Assembly (NCBI GenBank): GCA_021648265.1
Contig: JAKITD010000004.1
Location: forward strand, 1 to 64,000
DNA length: 64,000 nt
Origin: Flavobacteriaceae bacterium
GTDB taxonomy: Bacteria > Bacteroidota > Bacteroidia > Flavobacteriales > Flavobacteriaceae
Direction of reading: 5' to 3'
The stretch's first letter is position 1, and each line of letters begins with the position of its first letter. Both the position numbers and the translations under genes were made by a program. Under the pieces are notes generated by a model. That model was given only the letters and a program-made list of their open reading frames with translations. It was not told where the DNA came from and made no database searches. Positions 6,989-55,566 of this stretch are shown here, piece by piece.

Positions 6989-8280
6989 CTATTGTGTGAT
7001 AATCTCTCGGAATAAATCCTTATAAACAAAAGCCTTTGATAGCTGGTAGTAGATACATTTTTTTGTGATTTTTATTGTTGTTCCAAACTTTAATAAATAA
7101 GTTCTTATGGAGCTTATTTGCCATTTTTTAGCAGTTTCAAAAGAGGTTTTCTTAATCTTTTGTTTGATTAACAAAAACATCTCATAAGCAAGACTACTGA
7201 TAAAAAGACGAAAGAAGTTAGCCCAATATCCGTAATTGGAAAGCCTGTCTGAGAAGCACATATTTTTTACTTCTTTAATTCTGTTTTCACTTGCCTCACC
7301 TCTGAGTACATAAAACCCGAAATAGAGTTCTCTCGCTTCTTGTTGCTTTATGTTGCTGATAAAATGCCTCACATTCATTCCTAGTCCAGTACTTTCTACT
7401 TTCGAATAACACTGTTGTTCTTTGTGCCAACTTTTTGCTTTGTAGGTAAAATTAATAAAATGTTGATGCTTTTCCTTTTGTTTTAAGTATAGATGCTTTA
7501 CTGCTTTTTCTGCTCGTGAGACTTTCTTTTTCGACACAGCATTACTTGCTTGACCTATAATGAACAATAAATTATACTGATCTACCAACTCATAAAATGG
7601 AGCACAACTAAAACCACTATCTGTACGTATTCAATTTCCATCTCAGGATAAGTTGCTCTAATCTTAATGCGTCTTAAAATCGAGACATACCATTTATTAG
7701 AATGACTATTTCCTGGACGAAGAACAGGAAGAATTATTTGACCAGTCTCGCCATCATAAAAAAGCAATTCGTTCAACATAAACTGTCCAGAATAACCATT
7801 AAACATAGACATTTGTTGATTACCATGTGTAGGATCATCCGTTGCATCAACATCAATAACAATACTTTTTCTGCCAGCTAAGCTAGATACATAATGGGCA
7901 ACCCATGCATTACTAAGTTCGAAGATCGCTCGCTTGTCCAAACTATTTTCAAATCTCGATATGGTGGGCTGAGAAGCTAAATCTGTTTGAAGAACATCTT
8001 TAAATAATGGATCGTGTTTCAAATGTGTAACATCATTAGCATCTTGATAACCAAGTATCATCATAAAAACACGTTGCTTCAACTGTACTTCTCGGCTGAA
8101 TGTAATTAGTTTTTGATTCCGTAAATCGGGTAAAAGATTCCCAAATTTCTTTATCAACTTATGCTCTCGCTCTATTTTTTCTAAAAGTATCAGTAAGCCA
8201 TCAGAGCTGATTTCTGATGCAGAAAAATCAACAGAAACTTCTTTGTTTCCTTTATAAAATAAGATATCTTTATTGCTCAA
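6989..8280 (-). mobile_element. IS1380-type insertion sequence remnant
   Basis: The core of an insertion sequence recognised from its DDE transposase, which is in two frames. Flanking sequence at 6825-6988 and 8281-8362 may belong to it, but I could not find convincing terminal inverted repeats or a target duplication. The true ends are therefore not given. Broken genes lie on both sides (SGNH hydrolase left, HtrA-like right). They are different genes, so a simple insertion into one reading frame does not explain the locus. Confidence 0.6.
6989..8280 (-). pseudogene. Frameshifted IS1380-family transposase
   Basis: Two ORFs form one protein. The N-terminal part (8280-7582, TTG start) includes LEKIEREHKLIKKFGNLLPD and the first DDE aspartate region IVIDVDATDDPTHGNQ. 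The C-terminal part (7588-6989) starts at LVDQYNLLFIIGQ. Reading across about 7600-7635 in the other frame gives IRTDSGFSCAPFYELVDQ, the conserved second catalytic segment of IS1380 transposases. A 1-base shift in the GAATACGTACAGATAG stretch near 7625 therefore splits the gene. The C-terminal YGYWANFFRLFISSLAYEMF region is also family-like. The family is not known for programmed frameshifting, so I call it a pseudogene, although a sequencing error is possible. Confidence 0.75.
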
Positions 8281-8362
8281 AATTCGGTGGTTTTTTAAAG
8301 GGTTGCTTTTCTTTGTTTACACAATAAAGCTAACACTTTCCGCCCTTTTTACCTACCGTTAG

Positions 8363-8754: not shown

Positions 8755-8785
8755 ATTGAATAGTTATTTTTTTATAGTACTTTTG
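8755..8785 (+). promoter_or_regulatory. Promoter of the TetR-efflux operon
   Basis: A close match to the Bacteroidota sigma-A-type promoter: ATTG at 8755-8758, a 19-base spacer, and TACTTTTG (TAnnTTTG) at 8778-8785. Transcription would start at about 8790-8793, inside the palindrome described next and some 25 bases before the tetR start codon. Confidence 0.7.
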
Positions 8786-8786
8786 T

Positions 8787-8813
8787 CAACCAAATGGTTA
8801 AACTATTTAGTTG
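8787..8813. promoter_or_regulatory. 27-bp palindrome, probable TetR operator
   Basis: An imperfect palindrome centred on 8800. The left arm is CAACCAAATGGTT and the right arm AACTATTTAGTTG. Eleven of the 13 base pairs match. It begins two bases after the -7 box and ends two bases before the tetR start codon, so a bound dimer would cover the transcription start. That is the usual autorepression layout of TetR regulators. Confidence 0.7.
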
Positions 8814-9429: not shown

Positions 9430-10680
9430 ATGAAAAAAGGAATTCTATACTTAATTTTTTTAACTACCTCCCTACTTTGGTCACAACAGCAAATTAGCTT
9501 AACTGATTGCTATAATTTGGTAGATATAAATTATCCATTAGCCAAACAATCTTCTTTATTAGAAGAGAGAAATACTTTAGAATTAGAGGTAATTGACAAA
9601 GAAAAACTTCCTCAACTAGACTTCAACGCACAGGCTACTTATCAATCGGATGTGATTAATATTCCCATTCCAAATTCAGGTATTGAACCTCCAAATAACG
9701 ACCAATATCGTGCGACTTTATCGGTGAATCAATTAATTTATGCAGGTGGAGCCATTAATGCTAATTACAAATTAAAGCAGGCTTCATTAAACACCCAGCA
9801 AAAACAGGTAGAGGTTAATTTGTACCAATTAAAAAAACAAGTGAATCAAATTTATTTCTCTATTCTTTTAGTTCAAGAAAAAAACGGGTTATTAAATAGT
9901 AAAAATGAAATGCTTCAAGCCAAGTTAAAGGAAGTAAAATCAGGTATTACAAACGGAATGGTCATTCCAACATCCGATAAAATTATTGAAGCAGAATTAT
10001 TAAAAATCGAACAGCAATTTTCTGAAATTAATCAAACTAAAAAATCACTCATCAATACTTTATCTTTATTAATTTCTGAAGATATTTCTGAATTAACTAC
10101 TTTTCAAAATCCCGAAATTTCAGTTCAGTTAAACTCAACGATCAACAGACCCGAATTGGAATTATTTCAGCTTAAAAAAGACGAAGTAACTTCTTCTGAA
10201 GAATTGATTTCTAAAAATAATTATCCTAAATTATTTGGCTTTGCTACGGGAGGTTATGGTAATCCAGGGTTGGACCCATTAGACAATTCATTTCAAGCAT
10301 TCTATACCGTGGGCGTAAAATTAAACTGGAGTGTTTTTGATTGGAATAGTACCAAAAAACAAAAACAAGCTATTTCAATTAACAAAGATATCATCGATAT
10401 AGAAGAGGAAACTTTTTCATTAAACACTCGAATTGAATTGAATCAATTAGAGAATGATATTCAGAAATATTCAGATTTTATTGAAACCGATTCTAAAATT
10501 ATTGCTTTAAGAAATGAAGTGCTGAAATCGGCAGCCTCGCAATTAAAAAATGGTGTCATCACTTCGTCTGCATACATTACCGAACTTACAAATTTGTATG
10601 AAGATAAAAACAACAAAACTACACACCAAATACAATTACAGCTTATAAAAGCTAATTATAACATTACAAAAGGAATTTAA
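9430..10680 (+). CDS. TolC-family outer membrane efflux protein
   Basis: A 416-residue protein with an N-terminal signal peptide (MKKGILYLIFLTTSLLWSQ) and two long coiled-coil halves typical of the outer-membrane channel family. Examples are LINTLSLLI after a helical repeat, and FDWNSTKKQKQAISI in the second half, a common TolC-like stretch. It would form the trimeric outer-membrane duct for the adaptor and ABC transporter encoded downstream. It is the second gene of the operon, two bases after tetR and two bases before the adaptor gene, which indicates translational coupling. Confidence 0.88.
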   Translation: MKKGILYLIFLTTSLLWSQQQISLTDCYNLVDINYPLAKQSSLLEERNTLELEVIDKEKLPQLDFNAQATYQSDVINIPIPNSGIEPPNNDQYRATLSVNQLIYAGGAINANYKLKQASLNTQQKQVEVNLYQLKKQVNQIYFSILLVQEKNGLLNSKNEMLQAKLKEVKSGITNGMVIPTSDKIIEAELLKIEQQFSEINQTKKSLINTLSLLISEDISELTTFQNPEISVQLNSTINRPELELFQLKKDEVTSSEELISKNNYPKLFGFATGGYGNPGLDPLDNSFQAFYTVGVKLNWSVFDWNSTKKQKQAISINKDIIDIEEETFSLNTRIELNQLENDIQKYSDFIETDSKIIALRNEVLKSAASQLKNGVITSSAYITELTNLYEDKNNKTTHQIQLQLIKANYNITKGI

Positions 10681-10681
10681 T

Positions 10682-11572
10682 ATGAAAAATTATAAATTAA
10701 TAGCTGCAACCTTACTTTTATCAACCTTGTTTTCTTGTAAAAATGGCGATAAAAAAGCAGATGGTTACGGAAATTTTGAAGCTACCGAAATCACAGTTTC
10801 AGCAGAAAATAACGGGAAGATTGTGCAATTTAATATTTCTGAAGGGCAAGAACTTAAAAAAGAAGCTTTTATTGGTTATATCGATACCATTCCGTTGGCA
10901 TTAAACCGTGAGCAACTTTTGGTGTCTAAACAAGTAGTGGCTTCAAAATCTAAAGGTGTGTTATCTCAAATCACCGTATTAAAATCAAGGTTAAAAACAG
11001 CTAACGTCAATAAAGTTAGGGCTCAGAATCTGATTAAAGACAATGCAGGAACTCAAAAACAATTGGACGATGTTAACGGAGATATTGATGTGCTTAAACA
11101 ACAAATTAGAAGTATCGAAATTCAAAATGCACCAGTGGTAAATGAATTAAAAAGTATCGATGTTCAATTGCTTCAAATTGAAGATAAAATTACAAAAAGT
11201 AAAATTATCAACCCTGTAAACGGAACCGTTTTAGTAAAATATGCAGAGCCTGATGAAATTACAGTTTTTGGAAAACCTTTATATAAAATAGCCGATTTAT
11301 CTACGATGCAATTACGTGTGTATGTAAGCGAACCACAACTTCCAAATATTAGAATAGGACAAGAGGTTACCGTTAAAATTGATTCGGGTGACGATATGAA
11401 ATCCTATACCGGAAAAATAAGTTGGATCGCTTCGGAAGCGGAATTTACACCTAAAATCATTCAAACAAAAGAAGAACGGGTAGCTTTGGTATATGCAGTA
11501 AAAATAGATGTGAAAAACGACGGAAGCTTAAAAATTGGAATGCCTGCAGAGATGTGGATTAATGTTAAGTAG
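10682..11572 (+). CDS. HlyD-family periplasmic adaptor lipoprotein
   Basis: A 296-residue membrane-fusion protein. It has a lipoprotein signal (LLLSTLFSCKNG, with lipid-accepting Cys at about residue 19). A biotinyl-lipoyl half-motif follows: EATEITVSAENNGKIVQFNI and SEGQELKKEAFIGYID. A coiled-coil hairpin around residues 70-170 and the beta-barrel part (SKIINPVNGTVLVKYAEPDE, then KIADLSTMQLRVYV) complete the fold. This matches YbhG-type adaptors that pair with the YbhFSR ABC-2 exporter. It bridges the inner-membrane permeases (15253, 16459) and the TolC-like protein (9430). Confidence 0.9.
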   Translation: MKNYKLIAATLLLSTLFSCKNGDKKADGYGNFEATEITVSAENNGKIVQFNISEGQELKKEAFIGYIDTIPLALNREQLLVSKQVVASKSKGVLSQITVLKSRLKTANVNKVRAQNLIKDNAGTQKQLDDVNGDIDVLKQQIRSIEIQNAPVVNELKSIDVQLLQIEDKITKSKIINPVNGTVLVKYAEPDEITVFGKPLYKIADLSTMQLRVYVSEPQLPNIRIGQEVTVKIDSGDDMKSYTGKISWIASEAEFTPKIIQTKEERVALVYAVKIDVKNDGSLKIGMPAEMWINVK

Positions 11573-11598: not shown

Positions 11599-11889
11599 AT
11601 GAAAATGAATTTAAAAAAAATACATCAGGAAGATAAGGATATTCAAACAAAGCTTCTTCGTACAGTTGAAGAAGGTAAAGTTGTTTCATTACAAATTAAA
11701 AAAGGTAAAGTTTTAGAAGAACACGTAAGTAAAACGCCAGCAATTCTTATCTGCATAAGTGGAAAAGCACTTTACGAAGAAGAATCAAGAGAAATTAAAT
11801 TAAAAAAAGGTTCTTACGTAATGATTGAGCCAAATATTAAACACAAAGTTACTGCAATAAAAAAAAGTAACTTTATTCTAATCAAATAA
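11599..11889 (+). CDS. Small cupin-domain protein
   Basis: A 96-residue protein with a single cupin barrel. The second cupin block reads GSYVMIEPNIKHKVTA, with the conserved Pro-x-x-x-His arrangement. The first block KGKVLEEHVSKTPAILICI retains one histidine. No signal peptide, so cytoplasmic. It may bind a metal or a small molecule, but the ligand is unknown. It is the first of four genes placed between the adaptor and the ATPase genes of the exporter, all in the same direction with short gaps (26 bases before, 11 after). Confidence 0.75.
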   Translation: MKMNLKKIHQEDKDIQTKLLRTVEEGKVVSLQIKKGKVLEEHVSKTPAILICISGKALYEEESREIKLKKGSYVMIEPNIKHKVTAIKKSNFILIK

Positions 11890-11900
11890 ATAAAATTAAA

Positions 11901-12455
11901 ATGTACAAAAAATTATTAGTAAGCATTAGCATTCTTTCTTTACTTGCAAGTTGTAATCAGTCTAATAAAGAGAAGAAAACAGATGCATACCAAGATTCCG
12001 GAAAGGCGGTTATTGCTCAAACTGAAGCAATTCAAACAAAAGATGGATATGCATTAATGAAAGAGAATTGTTATGTATGTCATAATCCGGAAGCAGTTTC
12101 ACATGATACTATTATTGCACCTCCTTTTAAGGCTGTAAAAATGCATTATATGAATAGTTACGACGCTAAAGAAAGTTTTGTAACTGCTATGGTGAATTGG
12201 GTTCAAAACCCTTCCGAAGAAAAGGCATTAATGAAAGGTGCGGTAACTAAATTTAAAGTAATGCCTCCACTCCCATTGGAAACTTCAGAAATTGAAAAAA
12301 TTGCTACTTACATCTACGATAATGATGTAGAAGAACCTATTTGGATGAAAGAACATATGAAAGAAATGAAAGGAAAAGGAATGATGAATGGCAACGGAAT
12401 GGGAAAAGGCAAAGGAAACAATAAAGGAATGAAAAAAGTTAATCAATTAAAATAA
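11901..12455 (+). CDS. Cytochrome c-type lipoprotein
   Basis: A 184-residue protein with a lipoprotein signal (SILSLLASCNQSN). One haem c attachment site reads ENCYVCHNPEAVSH (CxxCH, about residues 53-57). A likely distal methionine lies in FKVMPPLPLETSEIEKIATY, typical of small class I cytochromes. The tail is unusually rich in Lys, Gly and Met (MKGKGMMNGNGMGKGKGNNK), which could bind metal, though this is inference. It probably sits in the periplasm on a lipid anchor and carries electrons. Its place inside an efflux operon suggests a role in the same stress response. Confidence 0.8.
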   Translation: MYKKLLVSISILSLLASCNQSNKEKKTDAYQDSGKAVIAQTEAIQTKDGYALMKENCYVCHNPEAVSHDTIIAPPFKAVKMHYMNSYDAKESFVTAMVNWVQNPSEEKALMKGAVTKFKVMPPLPLETSEIEKIATYIYDNDVEEPIWMKEHMKEMKGKGMMNGNGMGKGKGNNKGMKKVNQLK

Positions 12456-12459
12456 TAAC

Positions 12460-12942
12460 ATGAAAAAAATTAGTAAATTAATCACGATTGTAGCAATCAC
12501 ATTATCTATCACCTCTTGTGGAAATACTTCTGAAAAGAAAGAAAGTAAAAAGGAAACAATTGAAGAAACAAAAGTTGTTGATAAAACGGAAGCAGAACAA
12601 CATGATAGCGACGAAGAACTAACTCTAAACGATGGTAAACGTTGGGAAGCAAACCCAGAAACAACCCAAGGTGTTAAACAACTACAAATGCAATTACAAG
12701 GTTTTTCAGATAAAGAATCTGTAGAGGCTTATGCAACTTTAACAAAAGAACTGGAAGAAACTTTTGCCGAAATATTCGCAAAATGTACGATGAAAGGAGA
12801 AGCTCACAATCAGCTTCACAATTTTCTAAAACCTATGTTAGATCTTTTTGATGGTATGAAGTCGGGAGATCTAAACAACTGTAAAAAAAGTTATGATATT
12901 TTAAACAAACATTTAACTCTTTATAAAGAGTATTTTATTTAA
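12460..12942 (+). CDS. Uncharacterised lipoprotein
   Basis: A 160-residue protein with a lipoprotein signal (TIVAITLSITSCGNTSEKKE). A charged, probably unstructured linker (Lys/Glu-rich, residues 25-60) is followed by a helical domain from about EANPETTQGVKQLQMQLQGF to the end. The domain carries two cysteines (FAKCTMKGEAH and LNNCKKSYDI) and several histidines, compatible with a four-helix bundle that could bind metal. I do not recognise a named family. It starts four bases after the cytochrome gene, so the two are likely co-translated and may work together. Confidence 0.7.
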   Translation: MKKISKLITIVAITLSITSCGNTSEKKESKKETIEETKVVDKTEAEQHDSDEELTLNDGKRWEANPETTQGVKQLQMQLQGFSDKESVEAYATLTKELEETFAEIFAKCTMKGEAHNQLHNFLKPMLDLFDGMKSGDLNNCKKSYDILNKHLTLYKEYFI

Positions 12943-12943
12943 G

Positions 12944-13339
12944 ATGTCGAACACAAAAAAAATACATTATTTAACCACTATTGCCGCATTTATAGCATTA
13001 TTTATTGGTGCAATGTCAGTATTTGCAGGTACAAAAGTATTGCTGGGCATAGATACAAAAACCTACACTACTTTAATTTGGTTGCTTGCTTATAATGTGT
13101 TTTTTGGAGTTATTTCAATAGGTGTTGCTTTTCTAATTTTAAAGAATAAACTGCTAGCGAAACTTGCAACTTATTTTGTTTTAGCAAGCCATTTTGTAGT
13201 TTTTCTATATCTGAAATTTGTTAGTGAAATTGTTGCTTCAGAAAGTATCAAAGCAATGTTATTTAGAATTTCAATTTGGATCATCATTGTGGTTTTATCA
13301 ATTATAATTCCGAATTATTTAATTAAAAAAATAAACTGA
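12944..13339 (+). CDS. Small four-helix membrane protein
   Basis: A 131-residue hydrophobic protein with four predicted membrane segments: TTIAAFIALFIGAMSVFAG, LIWLLAYNVFFGVISIGVAF, LATYFVLASHFVVFLYLKF and ISIWIIIVVLSIIIPNYLI. It begins one base after the lipoprotein stop and ends just before the TTG start of the first ATPase gene. No catalytic motif is seen. It is likely an inner-membrane partner of the cytochrome and lipoprotein, but that is inferred only from gene order. Confidence 0.7.
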   Translation: MSNTKKIHYLTTIAAFIALFIGAMSVFAGTKVLLGIDTKTYTTLIWLLAYNVFFGVISIGVAFLILKNKLLAKLATYFVLASHFVVFLYLKFVSEIVASESIKAMLFRISIWIIIVVLSIIIPNYLIKKIN

Positions 13340-13340
13340 T

Positions 13341-14243
13341 TTGAGTATTTCCGTACAACATATAAGTAAATCGTTTAAAGATGTAGCTGCCTTAAAAGAC
13401 ATTTCTTTTGAAGTAAAGGAGGGAGAACTATTCGGACTTATTGGTCCAGATGGTGCAGGAAAAACTACCCTATTCAGAGTATTAACCACACTCCTATTTG
13501 CTGATAAAGGTGTTGCAACTGTTGCTAATTACGATGTGGTGGAAGATTATAAAGCTATTCGTCATTCAGTGGGCTATATGCCAGGGAAATTTTCTTTGTA
13601 TCAAGATTTAACAGTAGAAGAAAATCTTACTTTTTTCGCAACTATTTTTGGTACTACCATAGAAGAAAATTACGATTTAATTAAAGAAATTTATGTTCAG
13701 ATAGAACCTTTTAAAAACCGTAGAGCAGGAGATTTATCTGGAGGAATGAAACAGAAATTAGCTTTGAGTTGTGCCTTGATACATAAACCTAAAGTATTAT
13801 TTTTAGATGAACCAACCACGGGTGTAGATCCTGTTTCAAGAAAGGAATTTTGGGAAATGTTAAAACGACTTCAGAAAAAAGGAATTACCATTTTGGTTTC
13901 CACTCCTTATATGGACGAAGCTGCACTTTGCGACCGAATTGCATTGATACAAGATGGTGAAATTTTAGAAATAGACACTCCAAAATCCATTGTCAATAAA
14001 TTTCCGAAAGTTCTTTACAATGTAAAAGCAGCAAATATGTATCAATTAATCAGAAGTTTAAAAGAATACCAACATCAATACAGTGTGTATCCTTTTGGAG
14101 AATTTGTTCATTATACAGATCAACGAAACGATTTTAATCCTGAAGTATTAATTAATTATTTAAAAGAAAAGAATTTAAAAGAAATAACAATTACTGAAAC
14201 ATCTCCAACTATTGAAGATGTTTTTATGGAATTGGCGAGGTAA
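13341..14243 (+). CDS. ABC exporter ATPase, YbhF N-half type
   Basis: A 300-residue ATPase. Walker A is FGLIGPDGAGKTTLFRVL (about residues 33-50), the signature LSGGMKQKLALSCALIH, and Walker B VLFLDEPTTGVDP. The GPDGAGKTT and LSGGMKQK forms match the first half of YbhF/YhiI-type double ATPases. It uses a TTG start at 13341, two bases after the preceding stop. No ATG in frame lies near. It would pair with the second ATPase (14318) to drive the two ABC-2 permeases. The substrate is unknown; the class often exports drugs or organic cations. Confidence 0.9.
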   Translation: MSISVQHISKSFKDVAALKDISFEVKEGELFGLIGPDGAGKTTLFRVLTTLLFADKGVATVANYDVVEDYKAIRHSVGYMPGKFSLYQDLTVEENLTFFATIFGTTIEENYDLIKEIYVQIEPFKNRRAGDLSGGMKQKLALSCALIHKPKVLFLDEPTTGVDPVSRKEFWEMLKRLQKKGITILVSTPYMDEAALCDRIALIQDGEILEIDTPKSIVNKFPKVLYNVKAANMYQLIRSLKEYQHQYSVYPFGEFVHYTDQRNDFNPEVLINYLKEKNLKEITITETSPTIEDVFMELAR

Positions 14244-14295
14244 TATTTAACTAACTCTTTTAGGATTCAAAACCTCAGAAGAGTTAAAAAAGAGA

Positions 14296-14313
14296 TTCCT
14301 GCCTTCGCAGGAA
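14296..14313. repeat. Hairpin repeat abutting a start codon
   Basis: Perfect 7-bp arms TTCCTGC and GCAGGAA around a CTTC loop, ending four bases before the ATG of the second ATPase. A near copy precedes the start at 15253. Confidence 0.8.
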
Positions 14314-14317
14314 ATTT

Positions 14318-15046
14318 ATGAAAAAAGAAAACGTAATAGAAGCAACCAACCTTACCAAAACATTTGGTGATTTTACCGCAGTGGATGCCATTACCTTTGA
14401 GGTGAAAAAAGGAGAGATTTTCGGATTTCTGGGTGCGAATGGAGCTGGAAAGACTACGGCAATGAAAATGCTGATTGGTATTTCAATTCCTTCAGATGGG
14501 AAAGCGACTGTTGCAGGTTTCGATGTTTCTTCACATCCTGAAGATATTAAGAAAAATATTGGCTACATGAGCCAGAAGTTTGCTTTATACGATGATTTAA
14601 CCGTAAGAGAAAACATTACTTTTTTTGGTGGAATTTATGGTTTGAAACGTTCACAGATTAAAATTAAATCGGAAGAATTAATAACAAATTTAGGTTTACA
14701 AGAAGTGGAAAACGACTTGGTGGGTTCACTCCCATTGGGCTGGAAACAAAAAATAGCTTTTTCGGTGGCTCTGTTACACAATCCAAAGATCATTTTTTTA
14801 GATGAACCTACAGGCGGAGTAGATCCAATAACTAGAAGACAATTCTGGGAAATGATTTATCAAACCGCCCACGAAGGAACTACCGTTTTTGTAACCACAC
14901 ATTATATGGATGAAGCAGAATATTGCGATCGGGTTTCTATAATGGTAAACGGGAAAATTGAAGCATTGGATACACCCAAAAAATTAAAAGAACAGTTTGA
15001 AGTAGATAACATGAACGATGTGTTTTTGAAATTGGCTAGAGGGTAA
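14318..15046 (+). CDS. ABC exporter ATPase, YbhF C-half type
   Basis: A 242-residue ATPase. Walker A GFLGANGAGKTTAMKMLIG, Walker B IIFLDEPTGGVDP and H-loop VFVTTHYMDEAEYCDR are intact. The signature is degenerate: SLPLGWKQKIAF instead of LSGGQ. That is a known trait of the second half of YbhF-like fused ATPases, so here the fusion is encoded by two genes. It starts right after a hairpin repeat (14296-14313), which may mask or shape its ribosome site. It is part of the same operon. Confidence 0.9.
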   Translation: MKKENVIEATNLTKTFGDFTAVDAITFEVKKGEIFGFLGANGAGKTTAMKMLIGISIPSDGKATVAGFDVSSHPEDIKKNIGYMSQKFALYDDLTVRENITFFGGIYGLKRSQIKIKSEELITNLGLQEVENDLVGSLPLGWKQKIAFSVALLHNPKIIFLDEPTGGVDPITRRQFWEMIYQTAHEGTTVFVTTHYMDEAEYCDRVSIMVNGKIEALDTPKKLKEQFEVDNMNDVFLKLARG

Positions 15047-15049
15047 AAA

Positions 15050-15229
15050 GATGGAAGACAGGAAGACCGAAGATAGCTAGAATTTGTGTTCTAATAAAGA
15101 AAAGGGAGTAAAGAAAAAAGAAGAGAGAATGATGGAAGATTGAATAATCTGTGATAAATCTGTATAATCAGTGTTATCTGTGTTCTATAAAATATAAAGA
15201 GATTAGTAAAAAATAGTGTTTAAAAAAGA
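15050..15229. other. Noncoding spacer with degenerate repeats
   Basis: The 205-base gap between the second ATPase and the first permease gene contains no ORF. At about 15150-15190 it holds degenerate copies of an ATCTGTGATAAATCTGT-type sequence commonly scattered in Bacteroidota genomes. It ends in the hairpin at 15230-15247. Confidence 0.5.
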
Positions 15230-15247
15230 TTCCTGCCTTCGCAAGAA
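15230..15247. repeat. Hairpin repeat near a start codon (copy 2)
   Basis: TTCCTGC and GCAAGAA arms (one mismatch) around CTTC, five bases before the ATG at 15253. It is the same repeat as at 14296-14313. Confidence 0.7.
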
Positions 15248-15252
15248 ATGAT

Positions 15253-16359
15253 ATGAAAAGATTTATAGGTTTTATAAGAAAAGAGTTTTACCACATCTTC
15301 CGAGATAAGCGTTCCTTGTTTATTTTGTTTGGGATGCCTATTGCTCAGATTATGCTTTTCGGATTTGCAATTACCAACGAAATTAATAATGTGGACATTG
15401 CTATTTTCGATAAGTCAAAGGATGCAACTACCCAAGAAATCATCAATAAAATTACAGCTTCCAAATACTTCAGTAATAAACAACTCATTCAAAATGAAAA
15501 AGAAATAGAAGCAGTTTTCAAAAAAGGGAAAGTAAAAGCAGTATTGGTTTTTGAAAAAGATTTTAGTAAAAAACTAGTAAAAGAAAACAAAGCCACCATT
15601 CAGATTATCACCGATGCTACCGATCCAAATACTGCAAATACGATTAGTAATTACACCAATTCAATTTTAAAAAAATACCAACAAGAGATTAATAAAGACA
15701 TCAAAATTGCCTATCAAATAATTCCTGAAACTCGAATGGTTTACAATCCGGAATTAAAAAGTGTTTTTATGTTTGTTCCTGGTGTGATGACGATAATTTT
15801 AATGTTGGTTTCGGCGATGATGACTTCCATTTCTATCACCAGAGAAAAGGAGTTAGGAACGATGGAAATCCTTTTGGTTTCGCCAATTAAACCCGCACAA
15901 GTGATTATAGGTAAGGTATTCCCGTATATATTCTTATCGGTTATAAACGCTATTGTAATTATACTATTAAGCATATTTGTTTTTAAAATGCCCGTACAAG
16001 GAAGTTTCTTTTTACTAGGGTTTGAAAGTGTTTTATTTATCGTAAACGCTCTTTCTTTAGGAATTTTAATTTCCACCATTTCAGAAACACAACAAACCGC
16101 CATGATGATTTCCTTAATGGGATTAATGCTTCCGGTGATTTTATTATCTGGATTTATATTCCCGATTTCGAGTATGCCTTTTCCGCTGCAAGTGATAAGT
16201 AATATCATTCCTGCAAAATGGTTTATTATTATTTTAAAAGGAATTATGTTGAAAGGAGTTGGTATTTCATTTATATGGAAAGAAACATTGATATTAATAG
16301 GAATGACCCTGTTTTTCATGGGATTAAGTATTAAAAAATATAAAATTAGGTTAGAGTAA
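15253..16359 (+). CDS. ABC-2 type permease (YbhS/YbhR-like), first of two
   Basis: A 368-residue permease. One membrane helix lies near the N-terminus (RSLFILFGMPIAQIMLFGFA), then a large periplasmic domain (residues about 45-170), then five C-terminal helices from VFMFVPGVMTIILMLVSAMM onward. The family stretch ITREKELGTMEILLVSPIKP is present around residues 196-216, the coupling segment of ABC-2 exporters. It forms a heterodimer with the product at 16459 and uses the two ATPases upstream. Confidence 0.88.
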   Translation: MKRFIGFIRKEFYHIFRDKRSLFILFGMPIAQIMLFGFAITNEINNVDIAIFDKSKDATTQEIINKITASKYFSNKQLIQNEKEIEAVFKKGKVKAVLVFEKDFSKKLVKENKATIQIITDATDPNTANTISNYTNSILKKYQQEINKDIKIAYQIIPETRMVYNPELKSVFMFVPGVMTIILMLVSAMMTSISITREKELGTMEILLVSPIKPAQVIIGKVFPYIFLSVINAIVIILLSIFVFKMPVQGSFFLLGFESVLFIVNALSLGILISTISETQQTAMMISLMGLMLPVILLSGFIFPISSMPFPLQVISNIIPAKWFIIILKGIMLKGVGISFIWKETLILIGMTLFFMGLSIKKYKIRLE

Positions 16360-16458: not shown

Positions 16459-17580
16459 TTGAAAACAATAATATTCATCATACAAAAGGAATTCAAGCAA
16501 ATCTTTAGAAATAAAGGAATGCTTCCTATCATCTTTGTTTTGCCCTTACTACAATTGGTAATCCTCTCGAATGCAGCAACTTTTGAAGTTAAAAACATTA
16601 AATTCTCTTATTTGGATAATGACCGGACTTCCTTTTCAAGAGCTTTAATAGATAAATTTGATGCTTCCGAATACTTCAATGTTTTAGCTCATTTTACTTC
16701 AGAAAAAGAAGCCAGTTCAGCCATGTTAAAAGGTGAAGTTGATGTGATTTTAGAAATTCCACAGTATTTTGAAAGAGATTTATTAAAAGAAAAAAAAACC
16801 ACCCTTTCCGTTACAATAAACGCAATTGATGGTGCAGCAGCGGGAGTTGAAAATGTGTATATCAATCAGATTGTGCAGGGTTTTAATAAAAATGCTACTT
16901 CAGAATTGGCGATGATTAATGGAGTGGTTGCCATTCCGAAAACCATAGATAGCATCCCTTCGTTTTGGTATAATGAAACTTTAAATTACAAAACCTATAT
17001 GGTTCCTGGTATATTGGTTTTATTGGTGACGATGATTACTTTGTTCTTATCTGGAATGAACATTGTGCGGGAAAAAGAAATAGGAACCTTAGAGCAAATT
17101 AATGTAACTCCTATTAAAAAGTACCAGTTTATTATTGGAAAATTATTTCCTTTTTGGGTAATTGGTTTTGGGCTATTAACTATTGGTTTAATTTTAGGAA
17201 AAGTAATTTTTGATGTTCCTATGCTAGGAAGTATTCTACTAATTTACTTTTATACAGGAATTTTCCTGTTGGTTATTTTAGGAATGGGGTTCTTTATTTC
17301 CAACTTTACAGATACCCAACAACAGGCTATGTTTATCGCTTGGTTTTTTGTAGTGATTTTTATCTTGATGAGTGGACTTTTCACTCCTATTGAAAGTATG
17401 CCAATCTGGGCACAAAAATTAACTGAGTTGAATCCAATTAAATATTTTGTAGAAGTAATGCGAATGGTAATGCTTAAAGGATCTTCCTTACAAGACATTC
17501 TTCCTCAGTTATTAAAAACGACAGCTTATGCAATTGTTATGAATGGTTTGGCGGTTTGGAGCTATCGTAAGACTAGTTAA
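16459..17580 (+). CDS. ABC-2 type permease (YbhS/YbhR-like), second of two
   Basis: A 373-residue permease paralogous to the one at 15253, with the same topology: one N-terminal helix (MLPIIFVLPLLQLVILSNAA), a periplasmic domain, then helices from YMVPGILVLLVTMITLFLSG. The coupling stretch reads IVREKEIGTLEQINVTPIKK. It uses a TTG start (16459), with the ATG-less leader containing a TCAT microsatellite. It is the last gene of the efflux operon, closed by the terminator at 17602. Confidence 0.88.
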   Translation: MKTIIFIIQKEFKQIFRNKGMLPIIFVLPLLQLVILSNAATFEVKNIKFSYLDNDRTSFSRALIDKFDASEYFNVLAHFTSEKEASSAMLKGEVDVILEIPQYFERDLLKEKKTTLSVTINAIDGAAAGVENVYINQIVQGFNKNATSELAMINGVVAIPKTIDSIPSFWYNETLNYKTYMVPGILVLLVTMITLFLSGMNIVREKEIGTLEQINVTPIKKYQFIIGKLFPFWVIGFGLLTIGLILGKVIFDVPMLGSILLIYFYTGIFLLVILGMGFFISNFTDTQQQAMFIAWFFVVIFILMSGLFTPIESMPIWAQKLTELNPIKYFVEVMRMVMLKGSSLQDILPQLLKTTAYAIVMNGLAVWSYRKTS

Positions 17581-52453: not shown

Positions 52454-52504
52454 ACAATGTTTGTATCTACTATTATTTCGGCTATTATTTTTATACATTG
52501 TTGT
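52454..52504. repeat. Long imperfect palindrome at the 3' end of the methylase gene (attC-like)
   Basis: On the minus strand it begins ACAACAATGTATAA and ends ACAAACATTGTAG. The ends pair (ACAA/TTGT, GTAT/ATAC) around a loop holding AGCCGAAAT. It overlaps the last codons and stop of the methylase. The palindrome at 55734-55789 begins ACAACAGTGTATA in the same orientation, so the two share an opening of 13 bases with one change. No exact RYYYAAC/GTTRRRY boxes are present. Confidence 0.5.
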
Positions 52505-54179
52505 GTTTTCGTACATTATTTTCCGTTCTATTGATAGCGTTGGCAAAGACATACTCTTTTGCAATTTTCGGCTTGTGCTGTTGGCTTTGAGCGAATTGCA
52601 AATGTGTATGGCTTTCAGGTTGGGAGTATTCAGTTTCAAAAATTTCGTTTATCTGGTCAATATAAGTTCGACTTTGCTCTTTTCTATATTCTTGGAACAA
52701 ATTTAAAATTCTATTTACAGTTTTACTATTAAGTAAAGAAAGGTTTAATACTTTTGCTTTATTTAAGTCGTTTGGTTCAAATTTCTTTAATCCATTTCCA
52801 TATTCCCGTCTGTTATCACTAAATATTTCTTTTGCTATATCTGTCAGTAAATATGCAAAAAGTAAATCGGGATTAATCGTAGAGAATAAATCTGATTGTT
52901 TTAAATATACACAATGAAATGTCGTTAAATTGGATATTTCGGCTTCATTTCGTATAAATTTCAATCCATTTCGGTTAAAAACTGAAACCCAAATGGGTGC
53001 AGGTGGACGGTTTTCCAATGAATACCATATTTTTCTACTTTTTGTTAAATATTTTTCATTTACACCTTCTTCAATTCCTTTTTTAATATATTCATCAACT
53101 GCATTGTTATTTGATTTTACTGCGTCAAATAAATATGTTAATTCATCATTTTTTTCAAGTTGCTTATAATCATTTGAAGTAAAAAACACATTCTTAACGT
53201 CTTTTGCTTTACAAATGCAAGGGAGTAAATTATCAGATTGAATTGAGAATTCTTTTGCTTTAGATGGTCTGAAAGTAAAATAATCATTTGCTCCTGTAGC
53301 AATTCCTCTAACCACTTTTGCATATTTTGAAAAAGGGACAAGGTTTTTGTATTTATCGGAGTTTTGAACTTGATAATATTTACGCCATTTTATATTTGGG
53401 TCTAAATCTGTAGGTTTATATGTGAACTCTCCTTTTAATTTTGGATAAAAATTAATGTAACTTACTATTTTTGTTAAATCTGATTTTGATTTTATTGTAG
53501 AAATGTTGATTTCTTTATCATTATTATCTTTGGCTAATAAAAGGATAGATGCGGTGGTTAAAGCGTCATCAAAAACATTTTCTTTAAAATCAATTATAAA
53601 CAAATGTCTTAACGTGTTTGTTTTAACAAGGTATTCCTTGACCAATTTCCCATAATCAGAATTTAGAAATTCAGAAGGAATAATGTAAGCCATCCTTCCA
53701 TTTGGTGCTAATTGGTAAATTGATTTTAAGAGAAAAAGAGTATATAAGTTTGTAAAACCATTAAACTTAAATTTTAATTTATTTTCGATTTCTTTTAGAA
53801 TATTTTTATTATCGTAATCGTGAAATTTAAAATAGGGAGGATTACATATAATTCCATCATATTCATTTGACCAATCATTAAACATATAATCTTCAAGGTT
53901 TAATGAAACATTGGAATTGACATTAAAGTATGATTGGGCTTCTTTAAAAATGGTTTCATCAATATCGAAACCTTTAATATTTAGTTTAGGTTTCTTTTTG
54001 AGAAGGTTTCTTGAAAAAATACCTAAACCAAAAGCAGGTTCTAAAACTGTTTTTAGTTTTTTGTTTCCAATTAACCAATCAGACATTAAATCAGCAATAG
54101 TTTCAGGTGTAAAAAATTGGGCGAATTTTTTACGGTGTAAAAGACTGATTTTTTTAGTATATATTTTTTCTAATACCAT
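52491..54179 (-). CDS. N6-adenine DNA methyltransferase of the C-R-M operon
   Basis: A 562-residue type II-like methylase. SAM motif I reads KTVLEPAFGLGIFSRNLLKK (about residue 44) and the catalytic motif GIICNPPYFKFHDYD (NPPY, about residue 112), placing it with gamma-class adenine methylases of the Eco57I/TaqI type. The C-terminal half is a target-recognition region (LTFHCVYLKQ and ANLEY-type ends). It starts two bases after the endonuclease stop in an operon with it, so it protects the host at the same site. Its last codons lie in the palindrome at 52454-52504. Confidence 0.87.
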   Translation of the reverse strand: MVLEKIYTKKISLLHRKKFAQFFTPETIADLMSDWLIGNKKLKTVLEPAFGLGIFSRNLLKKKPKLNIKGFDIDETIFKEAQSYFNVNSNVSLNLEDYMFNDWSNEYDGIICNPPYFKFHDYDNKNILKEIENKLKFKFNGFTNLYTLFLLKSIYQLAPNGRMAYIIPSEFLNSDYGKLVKEYLVKTNTLRHLFIIDFKENVFDDALTTASILLLAKDNNDKEINISTIKSKSDLTKIVSYINFYPKLKGEFTYKPTDLDPNIKWRKYYQVQNSDKYKNLVPFSKYAKVVRGIATGANDYFTFRPSKAKEFSIQSDNLLPCICKAKDVKNVFFTSNDYKQLEKNDELTYLFDAVKSNNNAVDEYIKKGIEEGVNEKYLTKSRKIWYSLENRPPAPIWVSVFNRNGLKFIRNEAEISNLTTFHCVYLKQSDLFSTINPDLLFAYLLTDIAKEIFSDNRREYGNGLKKFEPNDLNKAKVLNLSLLNSKTVNRILNLFQEYRKEQSRTYIDQINEIFETEYSQPESHTHLQFAQSQQHKPKIAKEYVFANAINRTENNVRKHNNV

Positions 54180-54181
54180 TA

Positions 54182-55276
54182 TTAAAAATCAGTTATGTTT
54201 AATAATGATGTTAGACTATCTATATCCAAATATGCTGTACCTTTCTCAAAACTAACATAAAACAATAATCTACCTCTTCCCATTTCTCGTCTAACACTTT
54301 TGTGTTCAGGTTCAATTATTTTATATGCGACTTGATTTGTGTTTCTGGTATTAATTTTAACCGTAGTTTTATTTTGATTTTTTATATCTTGACTTATTTC
54401 ATAATAATCCCCTTCTTTTTCAGGTTCTGTTAGTAAGGTTAGAATGTTCTTGAAAGAAATACCATAAGATTTATCGAAAAATACTTGAAAATAGTAATGT
54501 GGGACATCAAATGTTTCAGCCCATTTATAAACAACTTTTACATCCTCAATTTTGGGCGTTATACTTAAATAATCTCTTTTTTGAACAATAATAATATTGT
54601 CTTTTAACTCTTTGAAAAGAAGTGATAATTCTTGCAACCTTTCTGTTGCTTTCCAACTTGGTCTTCTAAAACTAATTGAGGTTATCGTTTCAGAATTGAT
54701 ACTATTTAAAATATCAATGAAATGTTTTTTATTTGGGTGTTCAAGTAAGTCTGTAAAATTTTCAAGAATTTTATCTTTTACTAATAATGCTTGTTCAAGA
54801 TGAGTTGCAGTTCTATCCTGCATTTCTTGTTCGTATTTATCTATCAGAAATGCACTTGACCTAATTTCTAAACCTGCAATCGCCTTTTTGACATAATCCG
54901 CTATTTCAGAATGTGGAATATTACTTATGTCATAATCAAGGTTTATATCAAAATCTTCTTTCTTGAAAATAAGGAGGTCTGGTCGTTTGCCAATTGTATC
55001 TAATTCATCCTGAAATTCATTATAGAATTGGTCAAAACCTTTTTCTCCCGCAACAATATCGTCTGATTTTCCATATCTAACAGCAACATAGTTTTTAGAA
55101 GTTTCATTAATTGCTCTAAAGATTAAATCTTCCGCCCAATCTCCTTGCTCTTTGTTACTAATGAACATTGAAGATGCTTGAGTAGGTGGTGAAGTCCTAT
55201 CTCTCGGTATTGAAAAATCAACTATTGTTTCTGGAATAAGTTTAGTTAATTCCCTTAATTCATTAAAGTATGTCAT
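54182..55276 (-). CDS. Restriction endonuclease, probably AccI family
   Basis: A 364-residue protein between the XRE controller and the methylase. The start [20 protein letters not shown] and the segment [20 protein letters not shown] followed by [16 protein letters not shown] match what I recall of AccI-type enzymes (target GTMKAC). A PD-(D/E)xK-like site is possible in KRPDLLIF (about residue 100) and GLEIRSSAF (about 134). The AccI assignment rests on memory of the family, so the recognition site is a hypothesis. Its start overlaps the controller stop by four bases (ATGA). Confidence 0.65.
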
Positions 55277-55566
55277 ATGTTTTTACCGTATTTTATTTCC
55301 TGTTCTGCAACTTTTAGTATTTGAATTGCTTGATTTTCATTTTTAATTAAGTCATATACTTTATTTGCCAACCACAGAGTTTCTAATTCATTGTAAGGGA
55401 AATTGAAGATTTTACTAATGGAAACTAAATGCTCTCTTTTAAGAACTTTTTGGTTTCGTTCAATCTTACTTAAAAAACCATCTCCAACATTTAGTTTAGA
55501 AGCAAGTTCTCGTTGTAACATTCCTTTACTTTCTCGTAATTCTTTTATTTTTTGTCCAATTGTCAT
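55273..55566 (-). CDS. XRE-type controller protein of the R-M operon
   Basis: A 97-residue helix-turn-helix protein. The HTH reads [20 protein letters not shown] and [14 protein letters not shown] (residues 5-38). Small XRE proteins upstream of R-M genes act as C proteins that delay endonuclease until methylation is complete. It is first in a C-R-M operon on the minus strand. The promoter (55597-55626) and an inverted repeat (55575-55601) overlap just before its start, supporting autoregulation. Confidence 0.85.

Follow-up and report, generated by a model that had tools for sequence, protein, structure and literature searches.

A putative TetR-controlled ABC-2 exporter operon of a flavobacterium with a variable slot for accessory genes of possible redox or metal function

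In the stretch of 64,000 nucleotides analyzed here (the window; contig JAKITD010000004.1 of Flavobacteriaceae assembly GCA_021648265.1), four genes for a cupin, a cytochrome c, a lipoprotein and a four-helix membrane protein (TM4), all complete and on the + strand, were found between the HlyD adaptor and ATPase 1 genes of an ABC-2 exporter operon. Comparison with related operons shows this insert to be one occupancy of a variable slot and not a fixed module. With a probability of about 0.55, we interpret the locus as a TetR-repressed, tripartite ABC-2 exporter of the YbhFSR type with an accessory slot, the helpers in which would be co-induced with the pump and serve in redox or metal handling. 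An efflux operon is commonly taken to encode pump components alone; here, redox proteins in a rotating set accompany the pump. Of the helper families, two lack a Pfam model, and our analysis provides a first lead for both, one of them being common to the clusters for maturation of nitrous oxide reductase. The role of Bacteroidota multidrug-type pumps in copper or nitrogen-oxide stress thus becomes a testable question.

The inserted genes are closely spaced, with gaps of 26 bases (HlyD to cupin), 11 (to cytochrome c), 4 (to lipoprotein), 1 (to TM4) and 1 (to ATPase 1), compared to 74, 206 and 99 bases for the wider gaps of the downstream pump genes. ORF coordinates and Pfam analysis were in full agreement with the sequence-only reading that had placed four genes between the adaptor and the ATPases with gaps of 1 to 26 bases. 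Matches above the Pfam cut-off were obtained in the operon for ABC_tran, ABC2_membrane_3 (two permeases), HlyD, OEP, TetR_N, Cupin_2 and Cytochrom_C. Two ABC2_membrane_3 permeases, an ABC_tran ATPase and an HlyD-type adaptor in one cluster represent the layout of a YbhFSR-type exporter. The adaptor reached 106.8 bits against the PRK03598 (YbhG) equivalog, compared to a cut-off of 393, and the predicted exporter is therefore described as of the YbhFSR type, with orthology to YbhFSR not established.

Features of the putative exporter operon (positions in the window; +, forward strand)
Feature	Position	Strand	Basis and remarks
Bacteroidota-type promoter-like site, TTG-19-TACTTTTG (TAnnTTTG element)	8756..8785	+	upstream of TetR; orthologous regions compared
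27-bp imperfect palindrome CAACCAAATGGTTAAACTATTTAGTTG, presumed TetR operator	8787..8813	.	between promoter and TetR start
TetR-family regulator, 203 aa	8816..9427	+	TetR_N 4.8e-13; start moved from TTG 8756 to ATG 8816
TolC-like outer-membrane efflux protein	9430..10680	+	OEP 4.5e-22
HlyD/YbhG-like adaptor	10682..11572	+	HlyD_3, HlyD_D23; PRK03598-like 1.3e-30, below equivalog cut-off
Small single-domain cupin, 96 aa	11599..11889	+	Cupin_2 4.4e-07
Mono-haem cytochrome c lipoprotein, 184 aa	11901..12455	+	Cytochrom_C; alignment A3; tail survey
Lipoprotein, unnamed family, 160 aa	12460..12942	+	no Pfam match; alignment A1; AF2 model
Four-helix membrane protein TM4, unnamed family, 131 aa	12944..13339	+	no Pfam match; AF2
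ABC ATPase 1, TTG start	13341..14243	+	ABC_tran 1.2e-28
ABC ATPase 2	14318..15046	+	ABC motifs read from the ORF; orthologue in sister operons
ABC-2 permease 1	15253..16359	+	ABC2_membrane_3 1e-52
ABC-2 permease 2	16459..17580	+	ABC2_membrane_3 1.5e-48

In YbhF of Escherichia coli, both ATPase domains are fused in one protein. The window operon differs from the YbhFSR system in its two separate ATPase genes, a TolC-like gene inside the operon and the accessory redox genes. E. coli YbhFSR is reported to export tetracyclines and ethidium and to give tolerance to Na+ and Li+ (PMC7190983), and the abstract of that paper mentions no comparable insert. It has in common with the window operon an HlyD-type adaptor, ABC ATPase units, two ABC-2 permeases and TetR-type regulation. 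A literature search on this gene combination returned nothing relevant.

The region upstream of the TetR gene was compared among 48 orthologous loci. By this approach, the TAnnTTTG element was detected at 44 of the loci (5.1 expected from shuffled sequences) and the pattern of the operator palindrome at 35 (0 expected), mostly at an equal distance from the TetR start. A stricter TTTG...TAnnTTTG pattern was not enriched above chance over the window, and thus the promoter call rests on the orthologous upstream regions. No second copy of the operator with two or fewer mismatches was detected in the rest of the window's genome, which is 92% complete. Taken together, the conserved operator at the head of the cluster and its single genomic site suggest that a single local TetR repressor most likely controls the entire cluster.

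We examined the slot between adaptor and ATPase in relatives of the exporter. Among adaptor orthologues of at least 50% identity from 301 genomes of the same family (Flavobacteriaceae; n = 51, window included), the lipoprotein gene adjoined the adaptor gene in 28, a frequency that argues against chance adjacency. A wider survey covered 54 distinct exporter operons, about eight of which were reached via the lipoprotein itself, such that this set is somewhat biased towards the lipoprotein. Twelve different arrangements of five families were observed: lipoprotein (32 slots), OsmC (14), TM4 (11), cytochrome c (8) and cupin (6). OsmC, of the OsmC/Ohr peroxiredoxin family, is missing from the window operon and is not homologous to its four inserted genes. 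At least one of the five families was present in 42 of the 54 slots and 11 slots were empty, suggesting the helpers are not required for the pump as such. The fillings were lipoprotein alone (12 operons), lipoprotein with OsmC (9), OsmC (5), cytochrome with lipoprotein and TM4 (4), TM4 with lipoprotein (4) and cupin (2), with one operon each for cupin-cytochrome, cytochrome-cupin, lipoprotein-cupin, TM4, a cytochrome::lipoprotein fusion with TM4 and lipoprotein, a short unrelated ORF, and the four genes of the window. In the cultivable relative Psychroserpens jangbogonensis (locus L012), the slot contains the cytochrome, the lipoprotein and TM4. Genes for VIT1 and glyoxalase-like proteins were also among the slot contents, and in two genomes (G117 and G188) accessory genes were located between the TetR and outer-membrane genes instead of in the slot. 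On a tree of adaptor and ATPase, the filling changed 33 times compared to a shuffled mean of 36.5, a rough count given the many weak branches; this closeness suggests that the slot content turns over fast while its repertoire stays small.

The earlier proposal that the four genes form one unit did not withstand this survey, as cupin and cytochrome are each found in a small share of the slots and all four occur together in the window operon only; a single fixed four-gene module was thereby ruled out. The associated proposal, a redox- or metal-linked module coupled to the exporter, fared better in that the genes are associated with ABC-2 exporters in other genomes and other families as well, and stand with redox, copper and N-oxide genes in other contexts. 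The idea that the genes might occur elsewhere as a rule proved correct for cytochrome c (found in 95 of 301 family genomes, within the slot in 3) and for the lipoprotein (42 of 70 copies outside the slot), and incorrect for TM4 (in the exporter slot in 6 of the 6 family genomes that carry it) and the cupin (in 6 of 251 family genomes, 5 of these within this exporter operon). Thus, TM4 and the cupin are nearly exporter-specific within the family.

The lipoprotein had been regarded as uncharacterized, and neither it nor TM4 was found to match Pfam. AF2 modeling of TM4 yielded four long helices (mean pLDDT 87), consistent with its earlier description as a four-helix protein; naming TM4 by fold or PDB sequence was abandoned, as no match was significant. 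The lipoprotein was modeled by AF2 as a four-helix bundle (residues ~51-160; pLDDT 89-99, mostly >95) with a C-x-M-x-G-x-x-H-x-x-L-H motif (C109, M111, H116 and H120) where the third helix begins; 94 family members keep this motif, and the cytochrome fusions have lost it. Sequence reading alone provided the lipoboxes of the lipoprotein (ITSC-GN, with C20 conserved in at least 90% of alignment A1) and of the cytochrome c (LASC-NQ). No significant match was obtained for the lipoprotein by fold search or PDB sequence search, the fold matches being generic four-helix bundles (best E 0.14), and naming by either means was dropped; compared to cytochrome b562 (4er9), TM was 0.68 by target and E was 0.76, and the lipoprotein has no CxxCH.

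Outside of the slot, the stand-alone lipoprotein was found mainly behind NosD-NosF-NosY (about 16 loci) and otherwise near NO-related and anaerobic genes, with NrdD, hemerythrin, Rrf2, CopD, ScdA and NorB among its neighbors; an assignment of neighbors as NnrS was dropped, as it had no Pfam or NCBIfam match. On the lipoprotein tree, in which the label of L106 is uncertain with its exporter ~5 kb away, exporter copies fell into several separate groups and the exporter label needed 11 changes, with well-supported branches forcing at least 5 of these; thus, the link between lipoprotein and exporter appears to have been gained or lost repeatedly. The lipoprotein was fused to the cytochrome in six loci, and at L036 its domain was fused to another CxxCH domain, which suggests these families are physically tied.

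The inserted cytochrome c (Cytochrom_C, 21.9 bits; cut-off 21.3) carries a CYVCH haem motif, with C57, C60, H61 and M121 invariant in alignment A3. Met121, in VMPP, is likely the distal ligand, and with its CxxCH, distal Met and Pfam gathering score the protein has the sequence attributes of a class I cytochrome c. The C-terminal Lys/Gly/Met tail pointed out earlier (KGKGMMNGNGMGKGKGNNKGMKK) is real and is not distinctive, since tails or linkers rich in K and G are found throughout this family of cytochromes, with few Met in the relatives and Cys-rich tails in three. The tail was weakened as a candidate for a specific copper site, being mostly a K/G-rich stretch with Met-poor relatives. Elsewhere, the cytochrome is often part of a Tll0287-like fusion beside thioredoxin-like or rhodanese-like genes. 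This fusion is widespread in the family and has the same cytochrome family and a similar K/G/M-rich stretch, whereas the inserted cytochrome ends at its tail and is without the Tll0287-like domain. At L166, L167, L170 and L172, a cytochrome c-Tll0287-like fusion (domain tested for L166) is near thioredoxin-like, rhodanese-like and Crp-like genes. The window cupin (Cupin_2, 29.9 bits; cut-off 27.2) has no signal sequence. In two genomes (G070 and G285; loci L195 and L197) the slot cupin has a lipoprotein-like signal of its own, unlike the window cupin, and the exporter has a nos-type cluster with the lipoprotein a few kb away.

Distant relatives of TM4, the cupin and the lipoprotein were also found beside efflux genes in other families. 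A TM4 relative directly follows ABC-2 permease genes at L222; TM4 and cupin are near ABC-2 exporter genes at L226, L227 and L231, two of these three beside NorB (qNor) and hemerythrin; and TM4 with a c'-type cytochrome follows TolC of a TetR-RND-TolC operon at L224. The lipoprotein is behind TetR at L218-L220, with RND efflux genes and either cytochrome b561 or cupin and VOC (glyoxalase-like) genes. These ABC-2 and RND neighbors reveal the association with efflux as recurrent and not a local accident. At L226, L227, L229, L230 and L231, TM4 is preceded by a presumed large envelope protein and followed by a presumed small secreted protein of ~135 aa, both unnamed.

By the mechanism we propose, an inducer would release TetR such that pump and helpers are made together, and joint induction of the two is likely. 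The helpers may be directed against the stress that the pump also meets; located in the periplasm or membrane, they would bind, oxidize or reduce redox-active species such as a soft metal (e.g., Cu(I)), haem or N-oxide-damaged centers; the lipoprotein with its C-x-M-x4-H-x3-H pattern may be the ligand-binding part and the cytochrome its electron partner, with the pump meanwhile removing the toxic compound. The data are compatible with a redox or metal function of the insert. Neighboring genes for copper enzymes, NO reductase, hemerythrin and N2O-reductase assembly point to copper or nitrogen-oxide stress, an identification we offer as a guess at well below even odds; the other fillings (OsmC, CMD and glyoxalase) would also agree with a general stress by electrophiles or peroxide. 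A broader and somewhat more doubtful idea sees the four-helix lipoprotein with its Cys-Met-His-His motif as a metal or haem partner that ABC-2 transporters of Bacteroidota generally use in the periplasm. It would serve NosFY in the maturation of N2O reductase and pumps of the YbhFSR-like kind in copper or N-oxide stress, with the pump operon having a dedicated slot for helper exchange.

A rival reading makes the exporter itself a machine for processing copper or a cofactor, in analogy to NosDFY, instead of a drug pump, with the lipoprotein as the shared periplasmic partner of ABC-2 permeases. NosL and NosDFY function in copper handling for nitrous oxide reductase (PMC7558416), and the gene order named for flavobacterial nos clusters is nosZ, nosL, nosD, nosF and nosY with no further lipoprotein (PMC7477175). 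Both systems pair an ABC-2 permease and ATPase with a periplasmic lipoprotein partner, and members of the window lipoprotein's family stand behind NosY in many flavobacteria and behind the adaptor here; the C/M/H/H motif also fits, as do TM4 relatives at L232 with multicopper, SCO1 and azurin-like genes nearby. By contrast, the pump includes TolC and HlyD components, as drug efflux systems do, NosD, NosL, NosZ and any other cuproenzyme are missing from the cluster, so that it falls outside the NosDFYL-type copper systems in which these three stand together, the lipoprotein has no Pfam match to NosL, and relatives of the exporter exist without the lipoprotein. We consider this explanation unlikely. 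In the window's own genome, a nosZ-nosL-nosD-nosF-nosY cluster is present on contig C35 (L156; Pfam matches for NosD and nos_propeller, other genes assigned by reading). The lipoprotein that adjoins nosY in many relatives is missing from this cluster, and the window lipoprotein is away from the nos genes. No match to NorB was found in this genome (92% complete), and a tie of the exporter to NO reduction there was dropped.

Shared regulation alone, with the inserts linked to the pump neither physically nor through a substrate, is a possible if less probable account: the slot would simply be handy behind a stress-responsive TetR promoter, and its inserts would answer the same inducer (peroxide, electrophile or NO). 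The slot contents are functionally mixed (OsmC, cupin, VOC, VIT1, CMD and cytochrome c) and freely interchanged, accessory genes can alternatively stand between the TetR and outer-membrane genes, and the OsmC and CMD families include members for peroxide or thiol stress. Regulation alone leaves unexplained why TM4 is found within the family only with the exporter and why it directly adjoins ABC-2 permease genes in another family. Neutral hitch-hiking, by which recombination dropped genes into the operon that were tolerated as short and non-disturbing, would agree with the high, nearly shuffled turnover of fillings; random inserts would, however, be random genes, whereas the same few families recur in most operons, their reading frames intact and a motif conserved, and we regard this account as very improbable. 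The co-induced exporter with helpers for redox or metal handling is thus the reading we prefer.

Additional elements were observed in the window. Near-identical copies of a palindrome, ATTCCTGCCTTCGCAGGAAA, are located at 14295-14314 and 15229-15248, ending 3-4 bases ahead of the ATPase 2 and permease 1 start codons; none is expected by chance, and the palindrome is missing from loci L002, L003 and L027. A transposase-like gene, seemingly split over two ORFs (6992-8283, - strand), is directly upstream of the exporter promoter. Two adjoining ORFs at 52494-55279 (- strand) resemble a DNA methyltransferase and its partner protein.
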